NCBI GenBank assembly: GCA_001632435.1
Contig: KV423953.1
Span: forward strand, 1-64,000
DNA: 64,000 nucleotides
Reading direction: 5' to 3'
Source: Calocera cornea HHB12733
Lineage: Eukaryota; Basidiomycota; Dacrymycetes; Dacrymycetales; Dacrymycetaceae
Shown here: positions 2,931 to 63,779 of the stretch, piece after piece
How positions within the stretch are numbered: position 1 is the stretch's first letter
Layout of the letters: each line of letters opens with the position of its first letter
Position numbers and translations under genes: made by a program
Notes under the pieces: generated by a model
Seen by the model: the letters and a program-made list of their open reading frames with translations, nothing else
Databases searched by the model: none
Told to the model about the DNA's origin: nothing

Positions 2931-5900
2931 TCACTGCAGATCTGCTGCACAGAGGGTTAGCACGATGCCAGGTACACGCAGATGACTTATACTGTCCCCC
3001 TGGTCATCAAGGATGTCCTTGATATCCGTATCCACTGACCCTTTGCCCTCTGCAATGTCGCCCAATTGCTGCACCTGAGCCATCATGCCCTGCTCCATCC
3101 CAAACTCGGCAAGAAGGTCATTCAGCTGTGCTTTGGGTACAAAGTCTTCAGCCTCGTCCGGCTCGCACAGCTGTATCCGAGCTGCACTGGGTGCTGCAGC
3201 AAGAAGCTCGGCTTTGGTTGTGTGGTATTGCAAGGGACCAAAGAAGGGGCAGCACAGCTGCTCACAAAGGCCCAGTAAATCCTGTAGATGCCTTACCAGA
3301 GCCTGCTGCAGCACAGGGTTGCTAGTGCGGTTGCAGGTTGTCAATGCTGCAGAAAGTTGCTCTTTGATCCATGTTGCAGCGTGTGATGCTTCTTCCTGCA
3401 GTCAATGCTCTTCTTTGTCACAATGATCCAATATAAGAACAGCTTGAATTGCTTCACATATCTTTGGTGATGCAAACCAAGGAGGTGGTGCAGCACCAGT
3501 GACGTCGAACCAGAGGGTGTACCAAATGCCCGCGTCAACACTGGTGTCCAAAGCTTGCACTGCAGTGATAGGTTGTGGCATGTTCTCAGCATTCGCCCAC
3601 TGCGGCATTGGTGCAACCATCTGTAGGGAATCCACTGCTTTGTTATACTTCTTGATTGCATGTTGACAGATTATATCACGGTGTACAAGCTTCTCCTGCA
3701 CCTTGACAAGGCCAGTTATACCTGCCGCACATGTCAGCTTTCGGCCATGCAGTAGGGGAGGTACGGCAGGTCTTACCAAGACCACCTTTGCTTGGCCCTT
3801 CCTCCTTATGGCCACGCTTATACCGATTGATGATGTCGTATTCAAAGTTGCGGCCTATGAGGCGTGATACCACATGCTCCTTGAGTACAACACACCGTGA
3901 TAATGCAGTGAGGTACGGCAAGTCACTGGCTCTAATCTGCCCTGTCTCTTTTACCCCATCTAATACCCGCAGCATACCCAGCTCTTCAGCAAGAGACTGC
4001 ACTGCCGGTTGATGGGCCTGGAGCTCTGCGACAACTGCTGTGTGCCTCTCTATGTGCACCAGCAGTGTATCATCGGGTGGCTGCACAGCGTCCATGTAAC
4101 GCTGGTAAACATCGCTCATATGAGCTGTAGCGGCTTCCAGCTGCTGCACCAGGCGTGCATGTTCCTCAACCAAGTCCGTGAATTGCTGTGCTGCATTGTG
4201 AGCGATCCCGTGAGTCCCTGTTTTGAACATGAAGAAATCCGGAAGCAAGGACATTGTGGCAGGGGCGTACAGCTGCGGAGGGAGCACTGGGACTCCTGCT
4301 GATCCTTCCACCATGTACGGAGGGTGTCGTGGGAGACATCTTGCTGTGCAAGGTTTGTGATCCCTACTACCCTTCGCTGCTGTACCTTGCACAGCTGTCT
4401 GGTAAGCCACGTACCAAGGCCTAGTTGGTGCTGCAGGGCCAGGTGGGTGAGGTGGGCTTCAATGGCATACTCACGGCGGTGGGGCTGCAGCAACAGGTGT
4501 GAGCTGCAGCACGTATGGCATATGGACACATACACCCATCAGACGCTCCAAAGGAATTAGATCAGATGTCTCTGACCATAGCCTCTCACAGTTCTCACCA
4601 TCACTGAATCCAAAGCCCGGACACTTGCGGGGGTGATAAACAAGCTGACATGCCCACTGATGGCCATAAGCATGCAGTACTGATGTGCCCCAAGTAACTT
4701 GGTGCCGCAGCTCAGGCATGTAGCCGTGCGGCAGCAATGTATCAGCTGCATGACCCCTACTGAGTCCCATGAGACGTACCTGGCGCATTGCGCGGTCCAG
4801 CTGACATGCAATGTCGTACAGGATGCCAAGAGTCGCCATTCCGGGTAAGTGCTGCGACACTTTCCATATAAGTGCCACAGCGTAGTAGTGCCACTCCCCA
4901 GGGTCAACAAGGTTTGCAACAAATAGTGGCACGTTGTGTTGACATACAATAGCCATAATGCCATGAACTGTATAGGCTTTTGCGCGTGCCCTCTGTCGAT
5001 CCTGATCTGCAGCCTTGAAAGACTGCTCACAGCAATCCAGGACATCATCCTCAAGTTGTGGTGCAACAGCAGCCTGCTCAGATCGGCGGCTGCGGCACGC
5101 ATTCACGTGGCTCCTTGCATTGTCGAGCTCACATGTTGACAAGAAAAACTGATGGGGAGCTATGAGAGGATCGAGTAGCACTCGCGCAGACTGTCTGTGA
5201 CCGAATTGCGCATCAAGTGCCACATGAACATCAGGGGCACTGCTTCAACGTCTCAGTCATACATTGCTGATGTGGTACAGCACTTACCTTACCAACATGG
5301 ATTCCCTCCCCATTCCTGTCTTGCAAAGCACAGAGGGCAGAGGTTGTGAATGTGCTGGCTGGCTCATGTATCCGCTGGTACATCACTGACATCCACTACT
5401 GTCATTGGTCCAGCAGGCTGCGGGCTTGCCTGTAGGGGCACTGGCGTGGCAGCCACAATCTGCTGTACCACATGTGCTTCAACGTGCTGCCGCACCTGCT
5501 TGTCGAGAACATCAAACCACAGTGCTGCTTCAGGCAACTGCTCCTGGAAGGGTTTCTGGAAACCAAATGAGCGAAGCACAAATGCAGTAGGGGGGACACA
5601 CACCTTATTTTTGAGTATGAAACCTTGCAGCTTGAGAGCGGCCGCTGTACCTCAACACCATCCTTGTATGGACTGGGTACAACAGTTGTTTTGTGCATGG
5701 TAGAACTCCAGAAAGGTGACCGACATGGCCAATCTAGGCCGCTGCGGCAAGCATGCAAACCATCCAGACCTGGCAAGAATTGCATGCGCCCTGGGATCAC
5801 ATGAGGGCCTGCGGCAACGGTAAATGGTAACAGTTCGGATCGCTACTGCCAGTCAGCGGGGGTACGTCGAAGCCAGTCTGAAAAACAACGCACAGGTGAA

Positions 5901-6341
5901 GTCCAGTAATTCAATCTGCTTGGGCGTAATGTAAGGGTTGTCGCAGCAACAGGGCGGTACTTTGTCCGGTCCTGTTGGTAAGGCTGGAGTAGTCCCATGC
6001 ATACAACCAGCACGGTACTGCAGCAGTGGCTGCACAAGCTCTGGTACAACGGTGCTGCACCAAAACTTCCACCTGTGCTGCTTCTTCTCCCCACGGGTAC
6101 GTTGAACGGCTACAGTGGATGAGCGGTGCGGCACCTCCCCTGGCTTCCGGTGGACGTGGGTGTTGCTTGGATGTGAGCGAACTGGCGTGGTGGCAGAGTC
6201 GTCCGTTGGGAAAAGGAGACGTGCATAATCTTCATGCAAGGCCACGACCTCTTGCTGTACATATCTCCGATGGGCTGGCGAGTCCCATGTAACTTCTTCA
6301 GTGGAAATGCCTGGCGTAGGGAATGCTGTTGTGCCGCTCAA
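2931..6341 (-). CDS. KDZ-family (Kyakuja-Dileera-Zisupton) transposase
   Basis: A multi-exon minus-strand gene. From N to C it shows a Trp-containing region (HRWKFWCSTVVPELVQPLL, near 6110-6040), a CPLCF cysteine pair near 5330, and a DDE-type core. The core is VALDAQFGHRQ (first Asp, near 5220), ILYDIACQLDRAM (second Asp, near 4810), HAYGHQWACQLVYHPRKC, and DGENCERLWSE (Glu, near 4580). A KDZ C-terminal segment follows (HRREYAIEAHL, LGLGTWLTRQL) and then a coiled-coil tail to about 2931. A 49-bp GTATGT...CAG intron near 4485-4535 restores the frame after the ERLW region, so much of the gene looks spliced and functional. One further shift near 4280 is either a frameshift or a very short intron. 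In-frame-looking sequence continues to about 2520, so the 3' end is uncertain. The encoded protein would mobilise its own cut-and-paste element. I could not locate the terminal repeats. Confidence 0.85.
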
Positions 6342-7145
6342 TGGGGCTTTCTTTGGTGACGCTGCAGCACATCAGCACAAGTACGGCAAGGCTGTACTGC
6401 AGTGCGCACCTGTATGGGGCTCTGCTCCGCCGCGCTTTCTCTTTGTGGGCGTGGCAGGTGCGACACTGCGCTTGGCTGATGCAGTGTGGGATGCTGCAGT
6501 TCGTGGGGACAAAGGGCTAGCTGCACCAGAGGGTACATCCTGTACATGCTGAACCGGTACCCTTGCTGCCTTCAGACGCTTGGATCACAATTTTCATGGT
6601 CTTGCTCCAGCTGTATACTGATTGTGTGATGTGCTACCAGGTAGGACGGTGTGGCTTGCCAAATGGGGAAGCATTGGAATTTGCTGTAAGGAGTTGACGT
6701 GTCCTGAGTGGTAGCAGTACTGCAATAGCCTGTTGTGCAAGGCTTGCGGGAGGTTGTCTGTTGGCTGTCAATTGGTTGCACAAAAAATGAGGATATATCA
6801 GTGAGAACAGCAGATAGTGCACAGCTACATGGATAAACGGGCGGTACAATTTTTTTGGGGCGCTGCAACAGGCCACATGTCAAGAAATGTTTATTGCTGC
6901 ACCGCCACTACAGCGCGTCTGGCAACGCAGCGCGGATACAACCCTAGCTGCGCCCCCCTGGGAAGCAATGTGCGGTGCGCACCCGGACCCTAGCCACGCC
7001 ACCCGAGCGTGGAAGAAAGGTCCCGCACGGCAGTTGCTTCCGCCAGGGTCTCGGAGCCGGTTGCTTTTGCTCCAGGTGGTGCACGGCAGCACCCTATCTT
7101 GTCTGCCAGAGCGTGCTTGCTGCTGGCATCCATCCTTGCACACTT

Positions 7146-7189
7146 AATAAGAACAAATACTACATCACAGTGTAGTATCTGTTCTTATT
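7146..7189. repeat. Hairpin: 19-bp inverted repeat with 6-nt loop
   Basis: The arms 7146-7164 and 7171-7189 are complementary with one mismatch and are separated by TCACAG. The sequence CTAA falls 10 nt after the hairpin (ending near 7199). That resembles the 3' end of a Helitron (hairpin followed by CTRR), but no T follows at the junction and no Helitron protein is present, so the assignment is only a possibility. Confidence 0.7.
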
Positions 7190-16165: not shown

Positions 16166-16201
16166 TAAACCCTCGGTGCCTTTGATGGTCATGGTCTGCG
16201 A

Positions 16202-17168
16202 TACATCAACAGTCAGGGAGCTGGGTATGATTGCGTCGATCTGGCTTGGGTGACGAACAAGCCTGGGCTGTATTACACCAATAACCCGGGTGCAGTGTCC
16301 CAGTGAGTAGCATCTCATATCCCCACGGGTTGCATCCCTAATGGTGCTCAGTCCCACCGCGACCACTACCAACATGTGCAGCTCTTGCGCTGATAACATT
16401 GAAGGTATTCGATGGACAAGCCAAATGGAGGGAAGGACACGGCGAGGGGAATGGAAATCTGGATTAGGACTGTCCCCGGACCCTCAAGACGTTGTTGTCG
16501 GCATCGTCGGCCTTGGCACGATAGGCAAAGTCAGCAAATCATGCCCAGATTGTGCCATAGCTCAGCTGACCTTGTGATCAGATCGTCCGTGACCAGATAC
16601 AAGGATTTGGGACCAAGGTCGTCTATACTCAACGACATAAGCTGCCCGAAAGTGGTATGTCCCTTGCCTACGTATTCTAGGACAAATGCTGATATTCACT
16701 CAGAGGAGAAGGGTGCGTCCTTTCTGTCTTTCGATGAGCTCCTTGCAACCGCCGATGTCATTTCTCTGCTAATGCCGTTGCCACCGCAAACCTACCACCT
16801 CATTGGCGAGAAGGAAATTGCCAAAATGAAGAAGGGGGTCATGATCGTGAACACTTCGCTTAGGAAAGGTGCATTTCACAATTGCCAAGTTGTGTTCTTA
16901 TGCTTCCCGTATCATAGTTCTGGACGAGCATGCACTCGTGGCTGCTCTTCAACCCGGCCATGTCGACCGTGTTGCCCTCGACATCTATGAGAATGAGCCA
17001 TACCCTCATCCATACCTCCTCACAACCGAGAAAGCAACAGTGTTCCCACACAACGGCAGCGGAGCTCAGCAAGTCGTACTGGATGGAGAGCTGGAAATTC
17101 TGGGGAACATTTGTACATTATTGGAGACTGGTACTGCCCCTAATGCTGTTAACATTCCAGTCAACTAA
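16202..17168 (+). CDS. D-isomer-specific 2-hydroxyacid dehydrogenase (5'-incomplete)
   Basis: The family reduces 2-keto acids such as glyoxylate or hydroxypyruvate with NAD(P)H. Visible in order are the substrate-domain piece GAGYDCVDL followed by YYTNNPGAVS, a GEWKSGLGLSPDP block, the Rossmann glycine motif GIVGLGTIGK (16497-16527), ATADVISLLMPLPPQT, MIVNTS, LDEHALVAAL, ALDIYENEPYPHP and the catalytic-His region FPHNGSG, ending PVN at a TAA. At least four GT-AG introns of about 45-60 bp are needed. Two oddities stand out. No N-terminal 60-70 residues are found upstream, where a GC-rich tandem repeat sits instead. The usual NTSRG catalytic-Arg motif reads NTSLRK, moving the Arg by one position. 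It is either a 5'-truncated pseudogene or a gene with an unrecognised first exon. Confidence 0.75.
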
Positions 17169-17547
17169 ACATAGAATAGATGAAATAGAGTCTGGGTAGT
17201 ACGCTGGCACCTAGTTATAGGAGGACTTGTGCCGCTAATAGGGTTCATGATGTCAGACTTATATAAGGATTCTATGATGCAAAATATGGGACAAACCTGC
17301 CTCCAAAAGTACAGAAGTAGCCCAATCACGGGATCCCCATTCATTCTGCACTTGATACATTCAATTCACAGTACATCCATCCTTGGCCCATTCTCTCCAG
17401 TCATTGACCACTCATCTTGCATTCACTTGCGCTTCATCACTCACCTTGCACTTGATCTACACTTGTCCTGCAAACAAGGGGCACTTGAGTTTGTCACTCG
17501 GCTTGCACTCGTTGACCATTTTATATGTTGCAAACTCTTTGCTCCCA

Positions 17548-17966
17548 TGCTCGACCTGCGCAACTCGTACCTGAAGACGCTCAAAGCGGTGACGATGGTT
17601 GCTGAGCAGACGTACGACGACACGGGCATCTCCCTGCTCGAGTTTGCCTACCTTGCCCTGTCGATGCAGCGGCTATACCCGGCGCTGAAGCCGCCCGGCC
17701 TGCCCTGCCGGTGGATGGCACACGTCATGTTCCACGGCCTGTCGGCGCTGCAGGAGCAGCCGCTCCCGCCCGCGTACGTTGGGAGGATCAAGGGTGTTGA
17801 TGACGCGCAGGTCATGGCCGTCGTGGCGGAGACACGGAAGGCGCTGGCTGCGCACAAGCCGAGGAACCAGGTGGACAGGATGGTGTGCGCAATGGGCGTG
17901 GAGAAAAAGGTCAGGGAGCGGGTCACACTCATTCGGCTGAGCAGCAGTGGGCAAAGAGGGTTCTAG
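17548..17966 (+). CDS. Hypothetical protein
   Basis: The frame is open from 17229, but GC content and protein-like composition begin near the ATG at 17548. From there it encodes about 139 residues: a helical N-terminus, a Pro/Trp segment (PALKPPGLPCRWMAHVMFHG) and a charged C-terminus (DDAQVMAVVAETRKALAAHK). The sequence before 17548 is AT-richer and repetitive (CATTCA/CACTTG words), probably 5' UTR or an unrelated repeat. I do not recognise the family. It could also be the last exon of a longer gene. Confidence 0.4.
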
Positions 17967-18259
17967 CTGAGGGCACCACCAGAGCTGATCCTTTTGTTAC
18001 ACTTTCCTCTCACACTTACTGGCATACATTCTCTCTTGCATAACCTTGTACAACAAAACAACTTCACACTACTGTCAAAATATGATAAACATCGCATTAA
18101 TATATCCTCTCGGTGTCCACAACTTCACGATGTCGAGGCTTGACCACGGACTTCCTGGGTTGCTTCAAGTGGCTATGCTAGGGTTCTGCCCGGTCTTGTG
18201 CTTCGCACCTCCCACTCCCCTTCTCCCCCTCACCTCCCCAAACCCAAAGCCAAGCCAGA

Positions 18260-19122
18260 ATGGCCACCGCAGGTCCGTCAAACTCGTCCATCCTCACGCA
18301 CTCACGTTTCGTCTGGCAAGCCAAGAAGCGAGCGCGGAGAGAGCAGGTGCAGGAGGTGGTGTTCGACGAGGATGCGCATTGGTGCGTTGTCCCTTCCCTC
18401 CCTCCAAGCCAGCAAAGGCATGCCCAAAGCTGTTGTGCTGACTTGATTCGCCTTGCGGCGGCTTGCGGCACAGAGACTTCCTGACGGGGTTCCATAAACG
18501 GAAGCTGGCCAAGCATCAGGAGAAGGTGGACAGGGCGAAGGAGAGGGAGAAGCTGCAGCGGCTGCAGGATCGGGCTGATGTACGCGTGTCCCATTACGTT
18601 GGGCGCATCGGACACATGCTGACGTGTTGCGGTAGACACAAAAGATGTTGCGGGAGAAGGCGATAGAGAACGCTAAGCAGGTCGAGGCTGCTCTTGGGGG
18701 CGAGGTTGTCGAGCTGCTGAATGGGGCGGAGGAGGCGGACGGGATGGGAAGAGGAGTACAAGGGCCAGGACCAGTTTGCCACCGTGAGGCTTATTGAGGA
18801 CTTCGACCCCTCTGCGGACCTGTACCCTCCTACTGCGGCACTCCTGGACGGGGCAGAGCCGTCAGCGGCTGACGCACCCAAGCCTCCCCGCCAGCCCAAG
18901 CCCCCTAAACCACCCATGGCGAAAACGAGATCGGTGGCAGGGAAGAAGGACAAAGAGCGCAAGTTTCGATACGAGACCAAGGCTAGGCAGAAGACGGCAA
19001 GGGGGAAGGAGAAGGTGCGGAGACGTGAGAAGGGCGGTGGGGCCGGGCCGGGTGGGGACAAGCCGAGCAGGGGTGGGAGCGCGAGGGGTGGGATGGGGAA
19101 GGGGAGAGGCGGCAGGCGATAG
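18260..19122 (+). pseudogene. RRP17/NOL12-type ribosomal RNA processing protein, frame apparently broken
   Basis: The RRP17/NOL12 (Nop25) family acts in the nucleolus in 5' end processing of pre-60S rRNA. Exon 1 (18260-18381) encodes FVWQAKKRARREQVQEVVFDED. Exon 2 starts near 18472 with the hallmark DFLTGFHKRKLAKHQ and a charged coil. Exon 3 starts near 18637 (MLREKAIENAKQVEAAL). The end is basic and lysine/arginine-rich (MAKTRSVAGKKDKERKF, then an RGG-like GRGGRR tail). Two problems are visible. Joining exon 1 to exon 2 at the only good sites creates TGA at the junction. The frame also shifts near 18740, between LLNGAEEADG and WEEEYKGQDQFATVRLIEDF. Either this copy is a recent pseudogene or the assembly has small errors here. 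The family call itself is firm. Confidence 0.75.
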
Positions 19123-19129
19123 ACGATAG

Positions 19130-20870
19130 GCTGCCGAACGGCTGGAAATGGGGGTGCTTCACGCCGTTGTGATGGTGCGGCTCGTCGTCCGGCCTTGAGC
19201 ACGTTTGTCGCGCATATACGCCACTCAACGTTGTCGAACCTGCGCATTCTATGAATATAGCTGGCATCTCATCCGCCCGGCAGCTTCCACACCGCGCAAA
19301 GGGCCTTCCATGGGCCTGGACCTCCTGTGGTGCGTTCCATGCCTTGAGGAGCCGCAGCCATCGAGCGTTCTGACGTTCTGACGAGGTCTGTACAGTTATG
19401 CGCCATGTTCGGACCTGTTCTATCAAATCCCGTTGAGTTCATCCCAATGCGGCCTTCCCAAAAGCTGGATTCTCGTCTGCATTTGTTTTGTCAATCACGG
19501 TCGCCCGTGAGTGTTATTCTTTCTATTCTGTTGACGCTGCATGTCCAAAGCAATGCCACGGTACAGAACCATGCCTTCCTGTTGCAATCCTGCGGCTCCG
19601 CTTGTCTCCAGACCCCAGGACAGCCATCTTCCGTGATCACGGCTCCAAGTTGCATGGTGCGTTCATTTTCAAAAAGTGGCAGCGGTTAAGTCCTGACGAT
19701 GCATTCGTATAAGTTAGCACGACCTAATCTTCTATTTGCCATAGCCATTCAATTTCCCTTACTCTCCCCTGAACACCCGGCTGGTCACCGCTGACTCACT
19801 TGCAATGGGTCTCCGCTGGTGTGGCGTGTTCCATACCAACGGCAGGACCCATTGGTGATAACCGTGTCCAGACGTACTGTATACAACTGGACCACTAGCT
19901 TCCGCGCCACCCCTTCACTACTGGTTGCTACTCGCTTCCCGTATGGGTACGCCATGAACGATGGATCTTGCCCTCCTATCGCCGGTCGAAAGCCTCGCTT
20001 GTTCCAACACTTTGCTGGGGTCTGTGAATACCAGAGTTATCGTTCCTCTCGCCGAGCACTCGACATTGATAAAAAGGAATACATTCAACAGCCTGTTTGC
20101 AAAGGAACGGGCCCGTCATAACTGTGTTTCGACTTCTACAAGACAAAAATGGTCTCCGATTCAACAGCCATCACAATTCGCCTGAACTCGCCGCTGGTTC
20201 AGCCCGCATTGGACTCAAAATGTTCGCACAACTGTCACAGTGCTGCTCCGTGATTGCAACTTGCTGCTTCTTCCGGTACATCCAATGCAGGGCCTCCATG
20301 TATGACCCGATCGACCATCAAATTTGGGCCCTTCATGGGACAGTTACCCTTCGAAAGAAGATTTCTCCTGCTCAGTCCTCGATCTTCAAGACAACAAGGC
20401 GAGACAGGACGGTCCGCAGCGGAAATATCCTTCCGACCATCATCAATCAGAGAAGCCAAGTTGAGTGGCATACAACGTCTGACAAGTACGTGATGCTTTC
20501 CATCATCTTCCAATACAGCCACCATCGGCTGTTGGCGCTCAATCAAAACCATAACACTGGATATCTGATGAAAAGACGCTTGTCAAGCGGCCATCGCGAT
20601 AATAAGAGTTGATGACGGGGCAACCGTATTTGGCATTTACTTCCCAGTCGATTTATATATCTTCACCGCGGGAGCTGTTTGCACCGCCATGGCCATGTGG
20701 GTCTCTTGGGTTATCGGGATATCGGGGCAAGAGCTCAGTTGACCGGGGGCTCAGCACTTGTCGACCCAATGCATATTGGGGGACTTGTAAGGCTTTTGAC
20801 AATGTCACTCCCGCCCCTGTTTCATTTCAGCATCCTTTCCCCCACGACCTCAACAAGACAGTACAACGGC
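19130..20870. other. Intergenic stretch, no recognised gene
   Basis: About 1.7 kb of AT-richer sequence with only short frames (the longest about 170 residues, of unlikely composition). I see no family motif, repeat array or RNA gene. It includes the upstream region of the lactone oxidase relic. Confidence 0.5.
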
Positions 20871-20871
20871 G

Positions 20872-22509
20872 ATGTCGACCAAAGTCTCCGAGCTATCCAA
20901 CCTCGATCTTTACCACATTCTGGACTGGATCTCAATCAGACAAGGAGAGTTCACGAACTGGGCCGAAACATACTCCTGTCGACCGCTGTGAGTTTTTCAG
21001 CCGCAGACCAAATATCAGTGCAAATGTGTTGTGGAACTGTCAAAGAGAGAAGGCAAGCGCTTACGCGTTGCCAGTACCAGCCACAGTCCCAGTGACCTCG
21101 CTTGCACCACTGGTTTCATGATCAAGACCAAGAGGCTGAATCGAATCCTAGAGGTTTGTACACAGTGCAAGACAGTGTGGAATGCGCTTACCGGTGGACA
21201 CAGAGATCAACCCGGCGGAGAAATGGGTGAACGTGCTAGCGGGTGCAAAACTCCATGAAGTGCACAAGGCCCTTGGTCAACACGGCCTTGCAATGAGCAA
21301 CGTTGGATCAATCTCTGAACAAGCCATTGCCGGTATTATTGCGACTGGGAGCCACGGTACCGGCTGGACATTTGCCGCTATGTTGGCCAGCATCTTGGAG
21401 CTCGAGCTGCTTATAGCTGACGGTTAACGGATTGTCTGCTCGAGCCAAAACCGAATCGAGATTTACAAGGCGACGCTGTATGGGCTGGGCGCTACGGGAA
21501 TTATTCTACGCGTCAAACTCCAAGTGGAGGGTGCTTTCCGTCTCGCTGAGAAGAAGGAAGCCGTCTCCTTTGACTCGGTGATCAAGAACCTCGACAATAT
21601 TGCGCAGTCGGCAGAGCATGTACGAATCTGGTGGTACGCACAAGCCGACAAGATTCATGTCATGAGGGCAGATCACACGATGCAGGTGAGAATATCCTGC
21701 TCTTCTCAATTCTGAGGTGTGTCTGATCATGTATAGGAGCCAGATATCGTCCCCAGCAGTTTTCTTCAGGATAGGCTGGTGGGATTTCACCTCATTCAAT
21801 TCCTCCTCTTTCTCGGGCTATACATCCCATTCATTCTCCCCATGGTCCCACGATTCGCGTGCTGGTTACGGCGGCCCCACCACACCACTATCAATGACAG
21901 TTGGAAAATCTTCAATCTAGATGTCTTCGTGCGTACAAACCAATATTCATTCCGACAGACTATTGACTATGAAGTCAGATTAAGCAATACACGGCAGAAT
22001 AGGCGATTCCACATACCGGTGCAAAGGAGTGTATAAAGGCGCTTCGTAGTTGGCTATCTGAAGAACATTCTGAACCCCGGGGTCTTCGACCCCATTTCCC
22101 TCTGGAGATTTGATGGAGCAATGTTGACGACATCTGCTTGAGCCCCTCATACAGCCGGAAAACATGCTGGATTGGAATCATCCAGTTCAAGTAAGCGACC
22201 ATTGTGACTTGCGATTTTACTTTCTCATGTCTGTGCAGACCGTACAGCTTTGATGTGCCCTGGAAGGAGCTATTTCAGAAATTCGATAAGATCATGTCGT
22301 CGTACGGTGGTCGACCGCACTAGGCCAAGACGCACCCGTTTGGACCAACGGAGCTGCGAGCTTCCTACCCCCATTTCGACGACTTTGTTCATGTGCTCAA
22401 TGAGGTAGCTCCGAGCGGCCTCTTCAGGAATGACTACGTCAGCAGGCATATATTCGGAAATAATGTTAACGGTGATGCCCTCGATGATATTCCGCGCAGA
22501 ATGGTGTAG
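20872..22509 (+). pseudogene. ALO1: D-arabinono-1,4-lactone oxidase (ALO1-like), RIP-like pseudogene
   Basis: ALO enzymes are FAD-linked aldonolactone oxidases that make D-erythroascorbate at the mitochondrial membrane. The sequence follows the family almost end to end: MSTKVSELSNLDLYHIL, GHSPSDLACT-like SHSPSDLACTTGF, the FAD region VGSISEQAIAGIIATGSHGTG, a transmembrane-like LIQFLLFLGLYIPFIL, and the C-terminal ALO domain (GLRPHFPLEI, DDICLSPSYS, KTHPFGP, FDDFVHVL). Five in-frame stops interrupt it: TGA 20989, TAA 21425, TAG 22000, TGA 22111 and TAG 22321. Comparison with conserved family residues suggests that the two TAGs replace Trp (TGG) and that the TGA and TAA codons replace Arg or Gln (CGA, CAA). 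All five are single C-to-T or G-to-A changes. No frameshift is needed, so the gene died by transitions. It converges on the dead transporter 145 bp downstream. Confidence 0.9.
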
Positions 22510-22654
22510 GTACTACAAGTACTTCAGGCAGGAGGCAGGTGCGATGAATAAGCTACATGTCAAACCTGTTATTTGAACCGCGGAGCCTTTCTCGGTACTT
22601 CTTCATTCAAAGCTTGCTGGCGACCTCTATTGTTTCTCAAATGAATATAGTGTA

Positions 22655-24477
22655 CTAATCTGTTTTATCCTCCTTTTCAATCCCGTAGACCCCCTCGCCG
22701 CTGCCGCTTGGAAGTTGAATGGCCGTGATAGCAGAAGCAGTCAGATCCTGCACTGCCTTCTCCCCATCGAAGAGTGCTGCCGTTTGCTCGAGAGTGCGAT
22801 TCTTCGTCTCGATGCAGAAAAAATACATAAAGACAAACTCAAAGACGAGGAAGCAATCGTAAACAATGTAGTCTTTGCGCCCGTCAGCATGCTTGCTGTA
22901 ACTGACTGAGCAAGGGGGGAGCTTACACTTCCATCCTAAAGCGGCAAGCGCGATAGGATTGACGAATTGATTGGAGATAAGTGCCAGTGCCAGTGAGAAG
23001 CTGAATACTGTAAGCCCTTCGCCCGCAAAGAATAAGGCAGGATCTCGATAGTGTATGGAATGGTGAGAGGTGTAAAGGCTAGGCAGAAGGTACCGAAGAA
23101 GAGGACTGAATTGTAGGGTGAGTGCGCATCAGAATGCGGATGGGCATAGCTTACAAATGAAAGCGATCACGGCATCACCCGCAGCACTGCTCCCTGTAAT
23201 AGCATAGCGAGCGGAACAGACTGTAAGGAGGGTAAAAAATAGCAGCATGCCCCCGCTGGAAGTCAGGAACAGTACACGGCGGCCAGCCCTGTCGACGAAC
23301 GCCGACGCCACGAGACAGACTCCTAGGTTCTACACCTGCAGAACCCCATCTATAAGAGTTTGGGTAGTGGTCGAGGTAATTCCGATAGTGTCGAACACCA
23401 GGTTGAGATAGTAGGTGACAAGACCATTTCGGGACCACTGAGAGAAGAATGCCAGCGCAATGATCATACAGAGACATTGTCTTTTCCCGGGCGAAGCGAT
23501 AAGGGTTTTCCATCCAGTTGTTTTGGCGACTTTCCAATCCAATTCTCTTGCCTTTCGGATCTTGTTGTACTCGTACTGGACAAGAGCATTCTGGTCATCA
23601 CCACCGCCATGGTAGTACGCGAGGATTTTCAGGGCTGCAGCTTCCCTGCTTAGCGATCAATCCTTGTTTGCACAGGCAAGGTCAGAGAGGCTTACTTTCC
23701 CTTGGAGATAAGCCAGCGAGGAGATTCCGGGCAAAACATTACCAGGCTGACATGCATCAATGACGGCGCTCCTTGCAGTATGGATGGGATTCTCCAAGCC
23801 CACTGGTTTGGGATGCGAAATGTCCCAAACGTCGTCCACGCCACAACGATAGCTCCCGAATACCACAACGAGTTGTAAGTCGATACAATTGGTGCACGTT
23901 GAGAAGGGTAGACAAGCTCGGCGATGAGTAGTGGAGACGCACTTGTAGCAAACGCAAGCCCAAAGCCGAAGAGAAACCACGCGCCCATGAACATGCTTGA
24001 GTTGGAGGAGGCTGTTTGCACCGCAGTACCGCTTATTGTGAGGAAAGCTCCAATTGCAATTGCGATGTGTCAACCAAATCCGTCGATTATGTATGGAGTA
24101 ATTGGAGTTGCTGCCAGCAGGCCGATGTTGCGGATGGCTGTGAGGAGACCCAGCTTCTCACTGGAGGGATAACCCATGGCTGCCTTCCACTGGTCCAGCA
24201 CTTGTAGATTGTCTGCGATGGAGACCCAAGAATCTTATCAGCATATTTTTTGTGAAGGTAAATAGGATAAGTATGCACTCATCATCCGTTGGCATATGAC
24301 GTCATGAGGAGAAGTGCACTTCAACGACAGTTAGTGACGCCGCAACCTAGTTTTGGTAGGGACCTACAGCCATAAATTCAGGAACCACAGTCGTTTGTTC
24401 TTCCACCAAGGGCCTTGTTCAAGCAGGTCGGCAATGACAAGCTCCTTTGCTCCTTTCACAGACTGACCAGGAGACAT
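22655..24477 (-). pseudogene. MFS sugar (lactose-permease-like) transporter, RIP-like pseudogene
   Basis: Minus-strand sequence of a 12-helix sugar porter of the fungal lactose permease type. It starts MSPGQSVKGAKELVIADLL, continues LQVLDQWKAAMGYPSSEKLG, FGFGLAFATSASPLLIAELVYPSQRAP, FCPESPRWLISKGK (the porter PESPR motif), AFFSQWSRNGLVTYYLN, VDRAGRR and TIEILPYSLRAKG, and ends with ETKNRTLEQTAALFDG before TAG at 22655. Short GT-AG introns are placed as expected. At least two nonsense changes are present: TGA at 24070-24072 where the family has Arg in the FGRR motif, and TAG at 23330-23332 where it has Trp (QVWNL). Both fit C-to-T or G-to-A change. The order and mutation type match the adjacent lactone oxidase relic, so the two were probably inactivated together. 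Confidence 0.85.
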
Positions 24478-24479
24478 GG

Positions 24480-25440
24480 TGTGGGGAAAGAGGTCCGGGG
24501 TTGGGTGCTTGTTTCATCCATAGAGCCGTGCCAACTTAAGGGCTAGCGCAGTCCTCCTCTCATAGCCTAGCATTCACTTTTGGACTGCTGGACAATTAGT
24601 CAAGGCATCAAGTCGCATCGTTAACAGAGGCCTTATTGCTGCACCGGTCGCCGAGACCAGCACACGTTATGCATTGCACGTGAATATTCCTCCTTTACAT
24701 TCGGAGCGGGGCGGATAGGCGATGCGCCTTGCAAAAGCGGAGCACCAGTCTGCGCCACCTCTTTGCCACAACTCGCGGTTTTAGGCATGCCGATGTGTCA
24801 GGGTGTTACGAAAAGGCTTCCTTGACCGATTGGGGAACAAAGCCTCATACAAGACAGATTTCCCTTGGTTGGCTAGGATACGCTGATAATGAGCGTGTAT
24901 AGAAGCCGTCTAGGCTTGGAAATGTTGATCAGGACCTAAACATAGAAGCAGTTCAGTGATAGAAAAGGAATGAAGTATCAGTGCTCTACCTAGAACACGG
25001 AATCCCTCGGGCGGGCCGTGCTGTTTGCTAGCTTGGTACCTCATCAGGGAGCTTGGTACAGCATCCACCACATAGGGAATTCGGAAGTCTTCAACTCATG
25101 GGCCCCTTGAACAGGATTTCTCCAATCATCTTCTCTTGATGGCGCACAGCCGGTGATAAGTCGATAAATAGATGCCTGTCCCTTCTCGGCGAGAGACGGA
25201 GTAGGATAATGGTTGCCGTACCGACACGTCCATAGAACGAGGCCGGTGGTATACAGTTCTGAGGGAAAAAGTTTGTGCTACGGTGTACATTGCATGGAAT
25301 TGGCGATACGCAAGGTGGGGCGCAGTTGATGTGACGTATGCCCTTATTCAAACGGTGACCGAACCCCGAACTTCGCCGACAGTTACCGAAGCTTGGAACC
25401 CGCTTAGTCATCCACTCTGGCTTCCCGGCACACCCTAGGC
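24480..25440. other. Intergenic stretch, no recognised gene
   Basis: About 1 kb without a credible coding frame. It contains the upstream region of the transporter relic. No repeat or RNA gene is recognised. Confidence 0.45.
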
Positions 25441-28400
25441 AGCTCCCGTACGGGCCCTTTTAGGGGTATTGCGTTGGGGACGCGCGATGGGCCTGTTAGG
25501 GGTCTTTCTCGACCAGATCTGGTCGTGATGCGGTCGCCTGCGGGCCGCTTACCAAAAACAGATCTGGTCGCACGTGGACCATATCTGGGTGCCTGTCTGG
25601 TTGTCGACCACTTCCTACCCGTCTTCTGGCTGCCCCCCCTCCCCTGGGCCTCTTCCTTCTGGCTGGCCGGCTGGCTGTCACATAAATGCAAAGGCATGTC
25701 TCTGCCTGCTCTCTTGACGCGGTCCGACATGTCTCTCTCCTGTGACACGCTCCCGGCTGCCCCCGCCAATCCTACTAGTAGCTTGTTTGTTGGTTGTCCC
25801 TCTGTTGCACACAACCTTTGTCCATTCGCCTTGCTCCCTTTCTCGGCAGCTTACTCCTGTCTATATCCTATCGCCGAACAACCATTCCCCCCCTCAATCC
25901 AGGAGAGCATCTATGTTGCCCAAGCCCTTTACATTGTCCTTCTTGACTTCAATTTGTCTGATTCTCTTGGCGGGCTGTCCGGCCAGCTGACCCATGTCAC
26001 ATCAATCATCGACCACCTTGTATCTTGGATTTCCCCCCAATTCGGGACCCCTGCTCTGTGGATCTATGTGGACATATGCAACGTTTGTCATTGGCAACCA
26101 CCGCCAGCCAGCCTTTGGGATCTTTATTGCATGAAATGTGACACTCTTGGGCATACGCGTGCATCGCTCTCACGTGTTCACTGATATTGACTTTACGCTG
26201 ATTGCATTTCAGACAATCACTCAAGTAATGATCACTCTGAATTGTATCTACAGCTGCTTCTGTCTGCTGGTAGGCCAGCTGTCCGCTCGGCACTACGGCA
26301 ATGGTGGACATGGCATCTGTATCCTTCTCCTCCCTGCACCCTGGAGCAATTGCTTGAGTTGAGCATGACTGTGAGGCAAGTCTGGGTACGGAATGCATGT
26401 GCATGCGTAACCGGTTCTAATGGCTTACCATTGCTCTACAGGACACCCAATCCAGCAACCACTTGGGTGCTGTGTTTTTTTGAAGGTATCACCCTCGCAT
26501 TGTCACTTGGGCCAGCCAGCCATATAACGTCACACATGAATCAAATGTACATAGGCTATTGTGGCACGTAGCTATTAATACAAAGTCATGCGTCCTGCCC
26601 TTCCTATGGCCGGCTGGCCGACCACCTACAGCCATCCAACCACAGCCAGCCCCTAGTGCACCTTCTCGCCCTCTTCACTCTCCTTTCCTTTGCCTTTCTC
26701 ATCCAAAACTTCTTCCACATGAAGTTCCTTTGTGTCGTCTCTTGCCAGTCCCTACAAGCAACAATCTTAGAAGCAGTTCAGCGAATACACACAAGATTGC
26801 TCACGTCAATGTATTCAAACAGCCCTTGTAGGATCTGCTCCATTCGCCTTGGCCGTCGACGTGTGGGGTCGCTCTTCCCACCCTTCCCTTGTGCAGCTAC
26901 GTCGCGCTTATTGTCCTCCAAATTGGCCAGCAGTGCTTCCTGTTCAATGTGTCAGCCATGGCTGGCCGGCAACGAGCAGAACTTCTCCGTATCACCTGCA
27001 GGCGCATAGCAAAGACGTCCACGGCAAGCACCATCCCTCCCTGGTATTCGCCGATATCTCCGCCAGAACCGCGATCAGCTACTTCTCCTGCTTCTTCCCA
27101 TCAGATCAGCTGCAATTAAGGATGTCTGGCCGCACCTTGTGCCGCCGTTGTTCTGGCATCCCGTGGTTCGGACATCGTCTGCTCTGTGTTTCTGATGGAG
27201 GTTGCAACTGAGCCACTTCATCACAAAAAGCGGGCGAAGCTTGGGACCCCTTTTCAGACCCTTGGGGTTGGGTCTACCATTGTTGTGGCACTTTTGGCAC
27301 GTTGCCGGTCCCTGGAGGGCTTATGGACCCTTATCAGGCCATATCGGTGCCTCATCTGAGGTTCAGGTATAGGGAAGTCAGAGGCAACATTACAATGCCA
27401 TGTGATTCTATTGTAACAGTAACATAATATTGTGAGTAGGCCAAGATACAAGTATAATATGAGATTTCTGTGCCCGCTCCTACCCTAACATGCTGTCTAT
27501 GGTATACCTGAACCTCTTACCTGAACCTAACAACCTCTCTATTTTGTTTGCGGTCTTCACACTCTGTTGCCTCTATTCTCCAAGTAATACTGTGCTCTTT
27601 GAATCTTGCATACCAATCTGCCCATAGTTTTGCACCTCGCACAATGGTGGAAGCTAGGGTTTGTCAACCCGCACTGGCAGGCACAATTTCAATTCCGGTC
27701 ATAACCTGGTGTTCCACAGAATTCTCAGGGCTGGAGTCAATATGAAACCAGGCATGCTTAGTGCAAGCTTCAAGCACGTGCTTGGCTTGTTTATTGATAG
27801 GGTCTGGTCACACTTGCGCAATCAAGCATGTAAATCAGAGCGACTTGTCAGTATATGACCCCCAGGCTCAGACCGACCTGACACACACACCCTTGCAGTA
27901 AACCTGGCCCCTACACCGCACAATCCCTTCCTCTGCTAATAGTCACTGTTCTTCCATTGCAAGTCCGTATCCCAGCTTATGGCTTATTACATGTAAGCAA
28001 CACCTGAACCTCCATCCGCAGTATTGTGCTAATCTATGGGATGTATGGAGTTCAGGTAGCGTTTACTCTAAGAGTCCGATAATGGTATAGAAAGTATGCC
28101 GGTCTTCCCTTACCTGAACCTTGCTTACCTGAACCTTGCATATGTAGATGCGTCGTTCCTTGGTAATATTATGAGAGGTATGCCCGTCTTTGCTTTACCT
28201 GAACCTTGCTTACCTGAACCTCATACATGCAGGTACCATATTTTGGTGACACAACATCGACCCACACAGCTGTGCATTCATTGAGACCATTGTACTAAAA
28301 GCGTTAGGAATGAGCCGGATATGCTTGTAGGTTTAGTTAGATAACAATTGAATGGTTATACCGGATACATCTACACAAACAGTGCCGGAGTGCACACAAT

Positions 28401-29015
28401 TCTTTAGCGTGAATGAAAGGATTCCTCAGATAAGAGGTTCAGGTAAGGTGTATATCCGGTACAATAACACTGTTGAAAGTGCAAAAGGGCACACTATCCT
28501 TATGGGGGCATACTACATGCTTGAAAGAATTCTGATTATTGCAATTGTTATCAAATAAATAATGGTTGTTGGGTTTGTCTGCAACCAGCAGCCCGGTGCC
28601 TGGCCTTATAAGGGCTTGTGGCAAGGTCCGCAAGGGTTGCGGACATTTCAGCCATTTTGCACCTGGTCAGCCCTTATCAGGCCTTGTCTGTGCGGCCTCT
28701 TTTTAGTGATGTTCTGCACAAAGGCCGGCCAGCCGGAAGCAAACTGAGCCCTGAAGTGTGTTCTCTCATAAGGTACGCGCCAACAATTGGATGCCCCTCC
28801 ATCTCTCCTTCTTCCCCTCTTCTCTGTACAACATCATAGCATATATCCAGTGGGGCCAGCTGGCCCCCTATATCAACCACACTCCTATTCCCCTCTCCGC
28901 TTTTCATTCCCGTCTTCATTCCCTCCCCTCTCTGGCAGCCAGCCAGCCAGCCAAACCCTATTGCACCCAACAAGCCTTTCACACCAACACTCCTGACTCG
29001 TAATCTCCGCTCTCG
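25441..29015. other. Accessory island rich in GGCCAGC/GCTGGCC words
   Basis: About 3.6 kb in which words of the type GGCCAGC, GCTGGCC and GGCCGGCC recur far above expectation. Examples lie near 25660, 25975, 26270, 26510, 26605, 26920, 26960, 28725 and 28855, and the bias continues into the open frame at 29020-30099. It includes perfect palindromes at 25511-25524 (14 bp) and 28852-28867 (16 bp). Open frames in 25.4-27.2 kb have no recognisable family and appear to be by-products. It is best read as old mobile DNA. Confidence 0.5.
27217..28725. repeat. Repeat element with inverted ends and internal TTACCTGAACCT motifs
   Basis: The left end (from about 27217) reads CATCACAAAAAGCGGG on the plus strand. 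The right end (to about 28725) has the related CATCACTAAAAAG on the minus strand, so the ends are loosely inverted. Between them the motif ACCTGAACCT or its complement occurs about ten times: near 27360, 27505, 27518, 28001, 28050, 28110, 28123, 28198, 28211 and 28437. Outer copies near both ends are in the AGGTTCAGGT orientation, and most inner ones read ACCTGAACCT. Blocks 28095-28140 and 28178-28225 are direct duplicates. No protein is encoded. The motif layout is like subterminal transposase-binding repeats, so this may be a non-autonomous DNA transposon. Confidence 0.55.
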
Positions 29016-29019
29016 CACC

Positions 29020-30099
29020 GTGTCCAATGCACCGGCAGACAACGCAAGAGACAGCCAGCTGGCCGGTGGTGACAGTCAGCAAGTACCGCCTCTGTTGCCG
29101 CCTGCCCCGCTGTGTTTGCTGCCGCATGGACATCCTCCTGCTCTGGCTGATGGTCCTCCTATACTGTACCCAGCTCCCGCATATACGTACCAGCTTCAGC
29201 CCCATCCCTCTCGACCCACTTCTGCCACGGACGAGCCAAGTGCTGCCTCCCCTCGGCTGATCTCGAATGCCCGCCAGCATACCCATTCCAACAGCATGCA
29301 CAGCGATAACCATTCACGGCCAGCCAGCCGGCAGGACACACCTCGGCCCCAGCCCCAGCCCCAGCCCTTGCAGGATCTATCGCGTCGGCTTACACCCGCC
29401 AACAATCCCAGTTCTGGCTATGCTGCTGGTCGTCAAGCTGGTCAACGCGCTGAGTGGGGGTACAATCTTAGGGAGGATGTGTCATCAAACACCGCAATGA
29501 CAACGGCCGCCACACCGTGCACTATGGCTCCTTCCCTTGCGGCTGGCCAGCCGCCTGCTGGAGTGGTCCCTTCTGTACCCAATCCTCTCCCTCAAAGGTT
29601 TATGGCTCCCTGGAAGTTCACCATGCAGGGTGACGCGGCCTCAACCACCATGACACAATCCACCGCCAGACCTAATCCGCCTGTGCATCAGCCCACATCC
29701 CGCCAGCCTGCTCCTTGGCCTGCGGCCCACCGGCCGGCCTCCCCTGTGCTTCTGCCCAGCACAGCTGCTACTGGTGATGACTCTGTGCGCATGGTCAGCT
29801 TCGAAGAATGGGATCTCCTTATCCGCGCACGGCCGGATGGCCCATGGTCGCTTGATTGGTGGCTGGAAGGCCTGAACTACATGTCTCCTGAGCAATGGGG
29901 CACCCGCCATTTTTGGTCGGGTGAGCTGCATCTTGACTGGAAGCTTCCTACCCCAGACAACCCGTGCTCTTCACCTACGCCGCTGCTTGAGTCCCTAGGC
30001 TCAAGTCAACCACAGCGCGAGTCGCCAGTGGTACAATGGCACCTAAACGGCAGCTTCCTCAAGCTCAAAACCGTCCTGCTAAGCGACAAAGGACGTTGA
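29020..30099 (+). CDS. Hypothetical Pro/Ser/Gln-rich protein, 359 residues
   Basis: A single uninterrupted frame. The first 250 residues are low-complexity, rich in Pro, Ala, Gln and Ser (PRPQPQPQPLQDL, HSDNHSRPASRQ). The last 100 contain a more structured stretch (SFEEWDLLIRARPDGPWSLD, WLEGLNYMSPEQWGTRHFW). No known domain is recognised. The GGCCAGC-word bias of the island runs through it, so it may belong to a mobile element, for example as a Gag-like or accessory protein. An intact 1-kb frame in otherwise decayed DNA suggests recent function. The start ATG is the first after a pyrimidine-rich leader. Confidence 0.5.
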   Translation: MSNAPADNARDSQLAGGDSQQVPPLLPPAPLCLLPHGHPPALADGPPILYPAPAYTYQLQPHPSRPTSATDEPSAASPRLISNARQHTHSNSMHSDNHSRPASRQDTPRPQPQPQPLQDLSRRLTPANNPSSGYAAGRQAGQRAEWGYNLREDVSSNTAMTTAATPCTMAPSLAAGQPPAGVVPSVPNPLPQRFMAPWKFTMQGDAASTTMTQSTARPNPPVHQPTSRQPAPWPAAHRPASPVLLPSTAATGDDSVRMVSFEEWDLLIRARPDGPWSLDWWLEGLNYMSPEQWGTRHFWSGELHLDWKLPTPDNPCSSPTPLLESLGSSQPQRESPVVQWHLNGSFLKLKTVLLSDKGR

Positions 30100-34609: not shown

Positions 34610-35260
34610 TATGTTTATTAATTGATAGTTATCCATTAACCTTGGGCGAATGCCAGGTGCCGGACAGAAGTAGACATTTGCCGAGCGAAGGGTGACGCGT
34701 TCGGTGCCAATGGTGCGCGCTAGATCTCACTCATTTGCTACCCAAGTTATACTGTGCAGCCACTACTTTCCGACTGGACCAGTTCAATCAAATTCCAAGA
34801 CTGGAAAGTCAAGATTGGCTGGTTGAGATCCTGATCGCATCTCCACAAACATGCCTCTCTGATGTGTTGCATCCTTGAGAGCCGTTATTGAACCCACTTC
34901 AAGGTCTGTCAAACAAGACTCTGACTTGTTGACATCAGCACATTGTCAACGGCACATTGTCCCTGCATCTCCAAGGTCACCTGGTTGACATCTTAATCTC
35001 ATTTTCAGAGCACAGTGGTTGAATAGATACAAGGAAGAACATAGAGCCTGTACTTCTTCTTTATGTTTGGAGCACCTGCACTAAGCATGCCACACATTTG
35101 CATGCCGTCTTCTGGAACCTCGTCTCTGCCCTGGCTTTCTGCCAGCCCGACGTCCCCAGAGGCCATCCTCAAAGCAAGCTTTGCGCTCACCCGCGCCTGC
35201 CTACTCATCCTGCTCTTGCGAACATCCTCTGAAACGCTTCAAGTCTTGTCGCGTGTAACG
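34610..35260. other. Intergenic, no recognised gene
   Basis: About 650 bp without a credible frame. A few words (TTGACATCAG, TCAAC) echo the tandem repeat at 32.2-32.6 kb, but no full copy is present. Confidence 0.4.
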
Positions 35261-35265
35261 GTGCT

Positions 35266-37491
35266 TCAAGAGCTTGGAGTGTTTGGAGGGACAGGGGCCG
35301 TATCCCTCCGAACCAAGGACCGAGATGCCGTGTGTGTAGCAGAAGTGTTCTGCGACAGCGCATTACTTCGTACATGCGCTGGCTGGTTGGGGGGGCCGCG
35401 CAGTCGGCTCGAAGGCTGGTGACAATTGTCAGCACTGATTGATGTCAGAGGAACATCTGCTGTGGTATTTGGTCTTGCCGAGGACGCTGCGTAGGGTCGT
35501 GCAATATTGCTGTGGGCCGGGAGCATGGAGGGAACAACCGGTAAGGCTGACCGGCCCAAAGCTCGCAGAGGTTCGGTGAAGCTTGGTCTCATCGCCCAGT
35601 CCGGGGCTCGGGCATTCGTAGACCGAGGATAGTCCTGCGCCGGGGGCATGGGACTCCAAGGAGGCAAGCCTGGTCCCATTGCTTGGAGGGAGTAAGGGTC
35701 CGTTGGAAGGGGAGAGTGGGGGCCTAGCTGGTCGAAGAGGCCCGATGGATCATACCTCCCCTGTGTTGAGCTGCGGGTCGGGGGGGGCGTGAAGCCCGAA
35801 ACAGGCTGGGCCCATGGTGGTCCAGATTCGAGATAGTAAGGAGAGTACGGGAGCAGGAGGCGAGGGTGGTGGAGTGGCATGTGGCTGGGTAACGGTGCGA
35901 TCAATGTATTTGGAGCATTGTGGGAATCGGGTAATAGTTGACGTGTAGACCCCTGAGCAGATCTAGGAAGTTTGCCGTAACCGGAAGTGTCATCATGCAA
36001 CGAAGAAGTGCTGCGGACGGTGGTGACCGGCCAGGAGATCGATGATTCTATCCGCCTTGTGATCGAAGCGGTACTTGGTGGGGGTGAGGGATTGAGGGAG
36101 TTGATGGCGACCTTTGTGGGTGTGCGTGTATCCTCTTTTGAGATCGCCCGAGCACTTTGTAGCTTGAAGCCAGCCTTGATCGTGCCCGGACAAGGGTGTT
36201 CCTGATGTTTGGTTAGACAGAAACCTAAGGAACCCTCTTGCTTGTGACATACTGGGTATCTGAGTTTCGGCTTTTTCCGCTGTGGGGCTGCGAGGGTAGT
36301 ATCCGCGGTCCGTTTCCTTTTGGTATGGCTTTCGGGTTTCGTACCTGCTTGAGTCTGGGAACTTGAGGTCTGGGAACTTGAGGTTGCTCTCATAGCAACT
36401 CTCTTTGCCACTGCAGCCCTTCAATGGCCAATGTATTGAACTTCATTCGGATCTTCTAGAGCGATAGACGCCTGCACCTCAGTGACACCTTTGGAAGGGT
36501 TGCGAGTCACAGTGGGAGGTTTGCTTGGTATGGTGCCAGGCTTGATGGGTCTTCGCGAAGCCTCGTCCTTCAGCATCGGAACCTCCACACTGCTACTATT
36601 GGCCGCCTTGGTCGTAGCCTGCGCTAGAACTGGCACGGCGACCAAAGGGTTAATATTTGTTGGTGTATTGGGAAGACTGACAGGAGGTTTGCCTCGGAGC
36701 CTTATCCTGCTGGAAACTATAGCTTCTGTCCCTTCCTCTTCTGAATCGCCTTCATCATCAGAGCCAAGTTTAAAAGACCACCCGCTGTTGCTGCTCATGC
36801 TATTTGAAGATTTTGAAGACCACTTTCGAAACGAGCTGCGTGCTCTAGGGCGCCGTGATGGAGGAAAGCAACCTGTATGCGCTCTGTCTGCTACAATGGG
36901 TGGACGCGCGTCAGGGACACGCGTCTCACCTGACGCGCGTCTCACGCGCTCATCTTGAATGCCCTGCTGGTGCTGGTGGCGCTGACTCAGCCGCGAGGAC
37001 GCGCTCGACGCGTTGGGCGGCTGCGTGAGCGTTGTCTGGCTAGGTGCGTTCTTGCTGGACTGATCTTGCTCACCTGTGATTGACGGCTGATGGACCAACA
37101 ACGACACGAACGTGGACCTGGGTGTTGACTGACCTCCGCTACTGGCTGCTGCTCCTCGACGAACCTTACATCGCTCTGTCATGTCTCTCGATCTGTGATC
37201 CAGCGCAGTCACGTGCCGCCACNNNNNNNNNNNNNNNNNNNNNNNNNNNNNNNNNNNNNNNNNNNNNNNNNNNNNNNNNNNNNNNNNNNNNNNNNNNNNN
37301 NNNNNNNNNNNNNNNNNNNNNNGAGTGCTTCCCGGCGATCCAGAGCAACGATGTCTCTCTCCACTGGTCTCTGGCTCGGCGGCGTCTGCCTCTAGTCCAA
37401 TGGGGTAGCGCGGCTCCAGAGGGCGCGGCCTGTATGCACTCGGGTGCACGATCCGTATGCGCTCCTCGTCCTCCTTGGTCCACGCCCACAT
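35266..37491 (-). CDS. Long low-complexity hypothetical frame split by one in-frame TGA and the assembly gap
   Basis: Minus-strand codons from 37491 to 36421 and from 36420 to 35266 share one reading frame, separated only by a TGA at 36421-36423. The upstream part (across the N gap) contains an acidic patch LGSDDEGDSEEEGTEA and a serine run SSKSSNSMSSNSGW, and ends ALEDPNEVQYIGH. The downstream part has a nuclear-localisation-like KRKRTADTTLAAPQRKKPK followed by a possible Cys/His cluster (YPVCHKQEGSLGFCLTKHQ, HPCPG), then Pro/Ser-rich tail. A CGA-to-TGA change, or a short unrecognised intron, would explain the split. It could be a regulatory or DNA-binding protein. No known domain is recognised with confidence. 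Confidence 0.4.
37223..37322. other. Assembly gap (100 N)
   Basis: Exactly 100 undetermined bases. This is the conventional placeholder for a gap of unknown length, so sequences either side may not be adjacent by the stated distance. Confidence 0.99.
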
Positions 37492-40108: not shown

Positions 40109-40114
40109 TATAAA
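40109..40114 (+). promoter_or_regulatory. Putative TATA box of DMC1
   Basis: TATAAA lies 164 bp before the DMC1 start codon. It is the only clear match in the proximal upstream region. The distance leaves room for a 5' UTR containing the CTTGAC repeat. Confidence 0.45.
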
Positions 40115-40152
40115 GACGACGCGTCTCCGTTTGGGGCGAGCTTTCACTCCTT

Positions 40153-40232: not shown

Positions 40233-40277
40233 CTGTCGTTCCTCCACCGTTGCCTTCAACTCACCTGGAACTTCACC

Positions 40278-63753: not shown

Positions 63754-63779
63754 TTATTAAGGTCCTCGTTGAGCGGTCC

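Follow-up and report, generated by a model that had tools for sequence, protein, structure and literature searches.

A decayed duplicate of a lactone oxidase and sugar transporter gene pair in Calocera cornea, with a light TpCpG-preferring layer of C-to-T change

The TpCpG-directed hypermutation of Pucciniomycotina repeats, which resembles repeat-induced point mutation (RIP), reportedly has its source study in Horns et al. 2012. Accounts of it are relayed in the accessible parts of PMC5381629, PMC4014442, and PMC12730594; the first of these describes it as conserved among Pucciniomycotina, and the available portions of PMC12730594, PMC6980582, and PMC5381629 place the TpCpG signature there and state that it was undetected in Agaricomycotina. 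CpG-biased C-to-T change in Agaricomycetes is described in accessible sections of papers on Rhizoctonia solani AG8 (PMC4014442), Tricholoma matsutake (PMC6980582), and Heterobasidion parviporum (PMC5870257); no TpCpG preference is described in those sections, the R. solani authors having expected CpG but not TpCpG (PMC4014442), and CpG-only signatures accompany Masc2-type methyltransferases according to the accessible part of PMC4352252. The literature we searched, outside which most subscription papers lay, contained no earlier report of TpCpG or RIP-like TpCpG change in Agaricomycotina or Agaricomycetes. Here we analyzed a stretch of 64,000 nucleotides (the window), part of contig C40 in the 32.1-Mb, 302-contig assembly of Calocera cornea HHB12733 (Basidiomycota, Agaricomycotina, Dacrymycetes), in which a lactone oxidase gene and an adjacent sugar transporter gene are interrupted by stop codons and lie beside repeats.

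Like other unprocessed (duplicated) pseudogenes, the pair keeps its introns, has an intact partner elsewhere, carries mixed disabling changes, and sits on a faster protein branch; unlike them, it adds a layer of C-to-T change at CpG and TpCpG. As in Pucciniomycotina, Calocera repeats show CpG C-to-T change with a 5' T preferred, but Calocera is agaricomycotine and the layer is minor in the host-gene block. Change at CpG rather than CpA is shared with the Agaricomycetes cases, for which the accessible sections describe no TpCpG preference like that in Calocera. C-to-T change and an association with repeats also recall the classical RIP of Pezizomycotina, which acts at CpA, whereas the block lacks a CpA excess and contains many transversions and gaps. 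Very probably, the block is one of two copies left by an old segmental duplication and has decayed mostly through ordinary mutation, with a light TpCpG-preferring C-to-T layer added.

Using blastn, a single collinear inverted match of 7.9 kb was found between the block and C119:65362-73244, and global alignment placed identity at 85.4% (6664 of 7807 aligned columns the same) with 47 gaps. The right border coincides exactly with a transposon end (25427/25430), and the left border falls inside a gene that runs on in C119. The block and its disabled genes comprise the following features.

17535..25427, inverted relative to C119:65362-73244: segmental duplicate, by blastn and global alignment
20872..22509, + strand: pseudogene of D-arabinono-1,4-lactone oxidase (ALO), 5 exons, 5 in-frame stops, no indel in the coding sequence (CDS); projected from the C119 model
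22655..24477, - strand: sugar transporter (major facilitator superfamily, MFS) pseudogene, 6 exons, 2 in-frame stops, 2 frame-breaking deletions; projected from the C119 model
24283..24284, - strand: 10-bp deletion in transporter exon 2; C119 model projection
23011..23012, - strand: 1-bp deletion in transporter exon 5; C119 model projection

An intact paralogue of both window genes is present in the same genome, on C119; the preliminary description of this locus had proposed a search for such copies elsewhere in the genome. The C119 oxidase (478 aa; Pfam ALO and FAD_binding_4; D-arabinono-1,4-lactone oxidase) and the C119 transporter (522 aa; Pfam Sugar_tr; MFS sugar transporter) have all exons open, and their models equal the public proteins P0001 and P0121 at 100% identity and 100% coverage. 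In the window the two genes are convergent, with the first base of the oxidase ATG at 20872 (+) and that of the transporter ATG at 24477 (-), in agreement with the limits given in the preliminary description; its claim that both genes are dead and lie in a duplicated block also stood. All nine introns are present in the alignment, with GT and AG kept at the aligned ends in eight. All four oxidase introns (48-52 nt) keep GT..AG at aligned positions, and one of the five transporter introns lacks GT at the aligned donor. Reading frames and most splice sites had been called otherwise intact; the frames are so in the oxidase, with no indel and four of four introns, but not in the transporter, which has lost 10 bp and 1 bp and lacks GT at one donor. 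With introns kept, an intact homologue, and disabling changes in conserved coding positions, the window pair are duplicated pseudogenes and not a retrocopy, and their sequences would encode no functional product. Dacryopinax primogenitus has homologues of both genes, each on a contig of 1254216 bases, from which the oxidase/transporter pair is probably an old neighborhood. A second, remoter oxidase homologue lies on C164, its pieces 34-55% identical.

Over 7.9 kb, the two copies of the block are separated by 675 transitions, 468 transversions, and 47 gaps (transition/transversion ratio, ts/tv, 1.44). The preliminary description had reasoned that random decay would bring indels and transversions and that a paralogue alignment mixing them would tell against RIP or methylcytosine deamination; the alignment is mixed in just this way. 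Sites with C in the intact copy and T in the window numbered 70 at CA, 77 at CC, 164 at CG, and 67 at CT, compared with 57, 89, 70, and 78, respectively, in the reverse direction (window C, intact T). C-to-T change was thus asymmetric at CpG only (164 vs 70, p 7e-10), with no asymmetry between copies at CpA, CpC, or CpT (p 0.29, 0.39, 0.41); the CpA context that had been proposed alongside CpG therefore shows no excess (70 vs 57). CpG C-to-T counts, window vs reverse, were 31 vs 12 in the oxidase CDS, 35 vs 12 in the transporter CDS, 8 vs 1 in introns, 2 vs 1 between the genes, 74 vs 35 in the left flank, and 14 vs 9, not significant, in the right flank. On the window side, TCG was changed at 65 of 313 sites (21%) and other CpG at 99 of 830 (12%; p 2e-4), a preference also seen in CDS alone (p 0.022) and in non-CDS alone (p 0.007). 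No TCG preference was seen in the reverse direction, on the C119 side (16/237 vs 53/670 for other CpG, p 0.67). The window copy had a CpG observed/expected of 0.83, against 1.00 for the C119 copy, and a rise in TpA of the kind expected under classical RIP was not seen (TpA/ApT 0.65 vs 0.63 between copies). The block thus carries a light RIP-like layer of CpG C-to-T change with TpCpG preference that makes up a small share of the differences: the window copy has 164 C-to-T changes where the rate of the intact copy predicts 87, a surplus of about 77, or some 7% of 1143.

The seven stops bear the same mixed stamp.

20989..20991, + strand: oxidase stop 1, opposite Ser; transversions
21425..21427, + strand: oxidase stop 2, opposite Ser; transversion
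22000..22002, + strand: oxidase stop 3, opposite Trp; transition, CCA context
22111..22113, + strand: oxidase stop 4, opposite Arg; transition, TCG context
22321..22323, + strand: oxidase stop 5, opposite Trp; transition, CCA context
24070..24072, - strand: transporter stop 1, opposite Arg; transitions at two sites, one in TCG and one in GCC context
23330..23332, - strand: transporter stop 2, opposite Phe, a residue shared by 4 of 4 outgroup proteins; transversions

All five oxidase stops (codons from 20989, 21425, 22000, 22111, and 22321) and the two transporter stops (24072 and 23332) lie in the intact copy's frame, which confirms the counts first given, five and at least two. At these codons the C119 genes encode S, S, W, R, and W in the oxidase and R and F in the transporter, residues that the nearest outgroup protein shares at seven of seven positions. 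Each stop had been ascribed to a single C-to-T or G-to-A change from an Arg, Gln, or Trp codon; this holds for at most four of the seven, because three (S, S, F) differ by transversion only and, among the four transition-only stops (W, R, W, R), one Arg codon has two differing sites. The five transition sites at stops comprise two TCG, two CCA, and one GCC, so that TpCpG changes occur at two of the seven stops.

Comparison of the coding sequences pointed to a late loss. Between copies, the maximum-likelihood (ML) ratio of nonsynonymous to synonymous divergence (dN/dS) was 0.250 for the oxidase and 0.139 for the transporter (0.20-0.27 and 0.11-0.17 by other methods), at ML dS of 0.28 and 0.33; by our own estimate, about 0.5 would be expected had one copy been neutral from the start. 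These low values imply long constraint before the genes were lost. Protein branches were longer for the window copy than for the C119 copy (0.11 vs 0.026 and 0.077 vs 0.029), and polarized amino-acid changes fell mostly on it, 34 vs 10 in the oxidase (24 of 68 not polarizable) and 25 vs 5 in the transporter (17 of 47 not polarizable). A rough hand estimate, made from the branch proportions and the dN/dS values, suggests that the window copy has been free of constraint for about one-third (oxidase) and one-seventh (transporter) of its life. Loss this late fits poorly with duplication-triggered silencing soon after the duplication.

As a control for RIP-like change, the block was compared with nine other alignments of window segments. 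Four pairs were strongly one-sided, taken as CpG p < 1e-7; a single C110 comparison supplied two of these as separate segments, and the C58 pair is a segment present twice rather than a known transposon. The repeats and duplicates concerned are as follows.

2953..7029: repeat; 88 CpG C-to-T changes relative to the C228 copy, 0 in reverse
25430..29966: end fragment of a terminal-inverted-repeat element of about 19-20 kb; truncates the block on the right; CpG C-to-T change strongly one-sided
27219..28711: 1.49-kb repeat inside the element fragment; TpCpG bias in a 10-copy comparison
34619..36137: two-copy duplicated segment; change lies on the C58 copy rather than the window's (64 vs 3 at CpG)

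CpG C-to-T change ran 88 vs 0 against C228, 30 vs 1 and 44 vs 0 in the C110 segments (25430-26531 and 28712-29966, within the element fragment), and 3 vs 64 against C58, with ts/tv of 4.3-9.5. Other transitions in these pairs were nearer even (C228, 18 vs 12; C110, 4 vs 3 and 7 vs 5; C58, 27 vs 38). On the changed side of the four pairs, 93 of 237 TCG sites (39%) had changed, as had 133 of 787 other NCG (17%) and 67 of 3495 non-CpG C (2%); on the unchanged side, 4 of 559 CpG had. A three-way comparison of window, C13, and C228 copies gave 42/115 TCG, 43/386 other NCG, and 17/1781 other C on the window + C13 branch, although it has no outgroup and the changes could instead be loss in C228. In two multi-copy families, TCG exceeded other CpG at 36/89 vs 76/355 (15 copies) and 44/190 vs 82/850 (10 copies), copies whose relatedness makes the p values overstate independence. 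Across six rows from four repeat or duplicate families (the four one-sided pairs plus C13 in both directions), the Mantel-Haenszel odds ratio for TCG over other CpG was 2.88 (p 2e-12); the 39963-42872, 16172-17210, and 27219-28711 pairs were left out, the last having been used in the 10-copy comparison.

Some comparisons tell against the TCG preference or were not significant alone. The C13 pair had no significant TCG preference in either direction (p 0.41, 0.53), and neither did the single rows for the first C110 segment (p 0.15) and C58 (p 0.051). Positions 39963-42872, 80% identical to C13:297449-300216, showed neither CpG asymmetry (p 0.15) nor TCG preference, and serve as a negative control, being a diverged non-repeat duplicate without the signature. 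Separately, 16172-17210 is a D-2-hydroxyacid dehydrogenase gene fragment 78% identical to C40:210193-211270, near the contig's other end, with a weaker CpG asymmetry (26 vs 12, p 0.034).

C5-methyltransferase pieces were found in the genome on C104 and C177. The nearest PDB entry to the C104 piece is 7r76 (E 9e-73), named Rad8 in its deposition, which we take to be Cryptococcus DNMT5; a DNMT1-RFD search gave no match, nor did its controls, which makes it uninformative. The methyltransferase pieces make CpG methylation in Calocera cornea plausible, and with it the deamination of methyl-cytosine with a context bias as a serious alternative to an active process of RIP type. Both would fit the data, and the unchanged twins point to episodes or to methylation of individual copies.

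We propose that the duplication of a 7.9-kb piece carrying the oxidase and transporter took place inside the Calocera cornea lineage and that the window copy, under purifying selection for most of its life, then became dispensable. Ordinary mutation of all kinds would have broken it, through transition and transversion stops, deletions, and amino-acid drift, and a light dose of repeat-type TpCpG C-to-T change would have been added on top, as the source of two of the seven stops. The duplication, its intact partner, the stops and deletions, the mutation spectrum, and the CpG-only asymmetry with its TCG preference are observed directly; this order of events, the loss of function of the window copy, and the identity of the C-to-T layer with the process seen in the repeats we infer. 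Four points weigh against the proposal: the contrast in TCG preference between directions is moderately significant (p 0.016); the CpG excess of the right-hand 0.95 kb is not significant (14 vs 9, p 0.40); outgroups are proteins only, so that non-coding changes of the block are not polarized; and the depositor's annotation takes both window genes as live (P0003, P0127). A leak gradient from the adjoining element was considered and set aside, a simple leak being unsupported because the part nearest the transposon, that same right-hand 0.95 kb, lacks a significant excess.

Had RIP or RIP-like hypermutation been the main agent, the block would have been detected as repeated DNA and then inactivated through C-to-T change. 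The window-side, CpG-only excess with TpCpG preference, as in the window's repeats, and the two stops made by TCG changes would agree with this, but a ts/tv of 1.44 against the 4.3-9.5 of the strongly one-sided pairs, the 47 gaps, three stops by transversion, the symmetry at CpA, CpC, and CpT, and the long constraint before loss make it quite improbable. The classical CpA form was dropped on the mixed spectrum and the missing CpA excess. RIP or methylcytosine deamination, as first proposed, therefore survives as a CpG-only, TpCpG-preferring component but not as the main cause: the preliminary description was right about the pseudogene pair and about the existence of a small C-to-T component, but took that component for the whole. 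Arrival of the window copy through introgression or transfer from a sister species, in place of duplication within the genome, would account for copies as diverged as species can be (ML dS about 0.28-0.33) and both long under constraint. We consider it unlikely, as the two copies are sisters (97/94) with the C. viscosa transporter outside, a two-Calocera comparison that rests on one other Calocera and the transporter only; no C. viscosa oxidase was among the best 120 of 403 matches listed.

That the genes are live and the stops spliced out is the depositor's reading: the public models P0003 and P0127, both 430 aa long, bypass all seven stops. However, the introns they require would include two gaps of just 19 and 27 nt, beside oxidase introns of 48-52 nt; P0003 starts in a different frame of upstream sequence and loses conserved segments; and P0127 loses transmembrane parts and omits the exon 2 homologue. 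On these gaps, the foreign-frame start, and the lost conserved parts, a live spliced gene was rejected as very improbable, and both records are likely annotation errors, predictions forced over pseudogenes. Barely credible, finally, is that the copies are alleles from the two nuclei of a dikaryon, assembled separately: contigs of one hundred-odd kb and a basidiomycete host would allow it, but 85% identity is low for alleles and 46000-64000 of C40 is not duplicated elsewhere in the assembly, where its 17 matches reach 592 bases at most, on which ground the idea was dropped.

The element that truncates the decayed duplicate has a full copy at C110:11939-31095 and at least five other placed end pairs (C110, C64, C61, C204, C42); weak CxC1/CxC3 and Ulp1 hits below Pfam cut-offs, from a scan of five open reading frames of one element copy, suggest that it is KDZ-type. 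The repeat nested in it (27219-28711) has at least nine other copies, 88-98% identical. Positions 1778-7400 match the extreme end of contig C13 at 98% identity, and the 592 bases at 63166-63757 are 99% identical to C42:197539-198130. C40 may begin at a chromosome end rich in repeats or where the assembly broke within a repeat; nine tandem-repeat rows contained no telomere-like array at the window start, and a telomere or tandem-repeat account of it was dropped. No window match reached the Rfam gathering score.

The pseudogene pair itself is ordinary, its main use being to correct two public gene models. The main interest lies in the repeats beside it, which carry a clean TpCpG C-to-T signature in an agaricomycotine. 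It is possible, though we hold the idea only tentatively, that Dacrymycetes have an episodic, TpCpG-directed repeat hypermutation, of a type regarded as limited to Pucciniomycotina, that spills at low dose onto duplicated host genes and adds stops; its bursts would strike single copies, which lose up to 39% of TCG, while a twin of equal age, judged by its other changes, loses CpG no more than other C. The one-sided pairs permit a direct test of active hypermutation against slow methyl-cytosine decay. If the signature holds genome-wide, the TpCpG process would be older or more widespread in basidiomycetes than thought.

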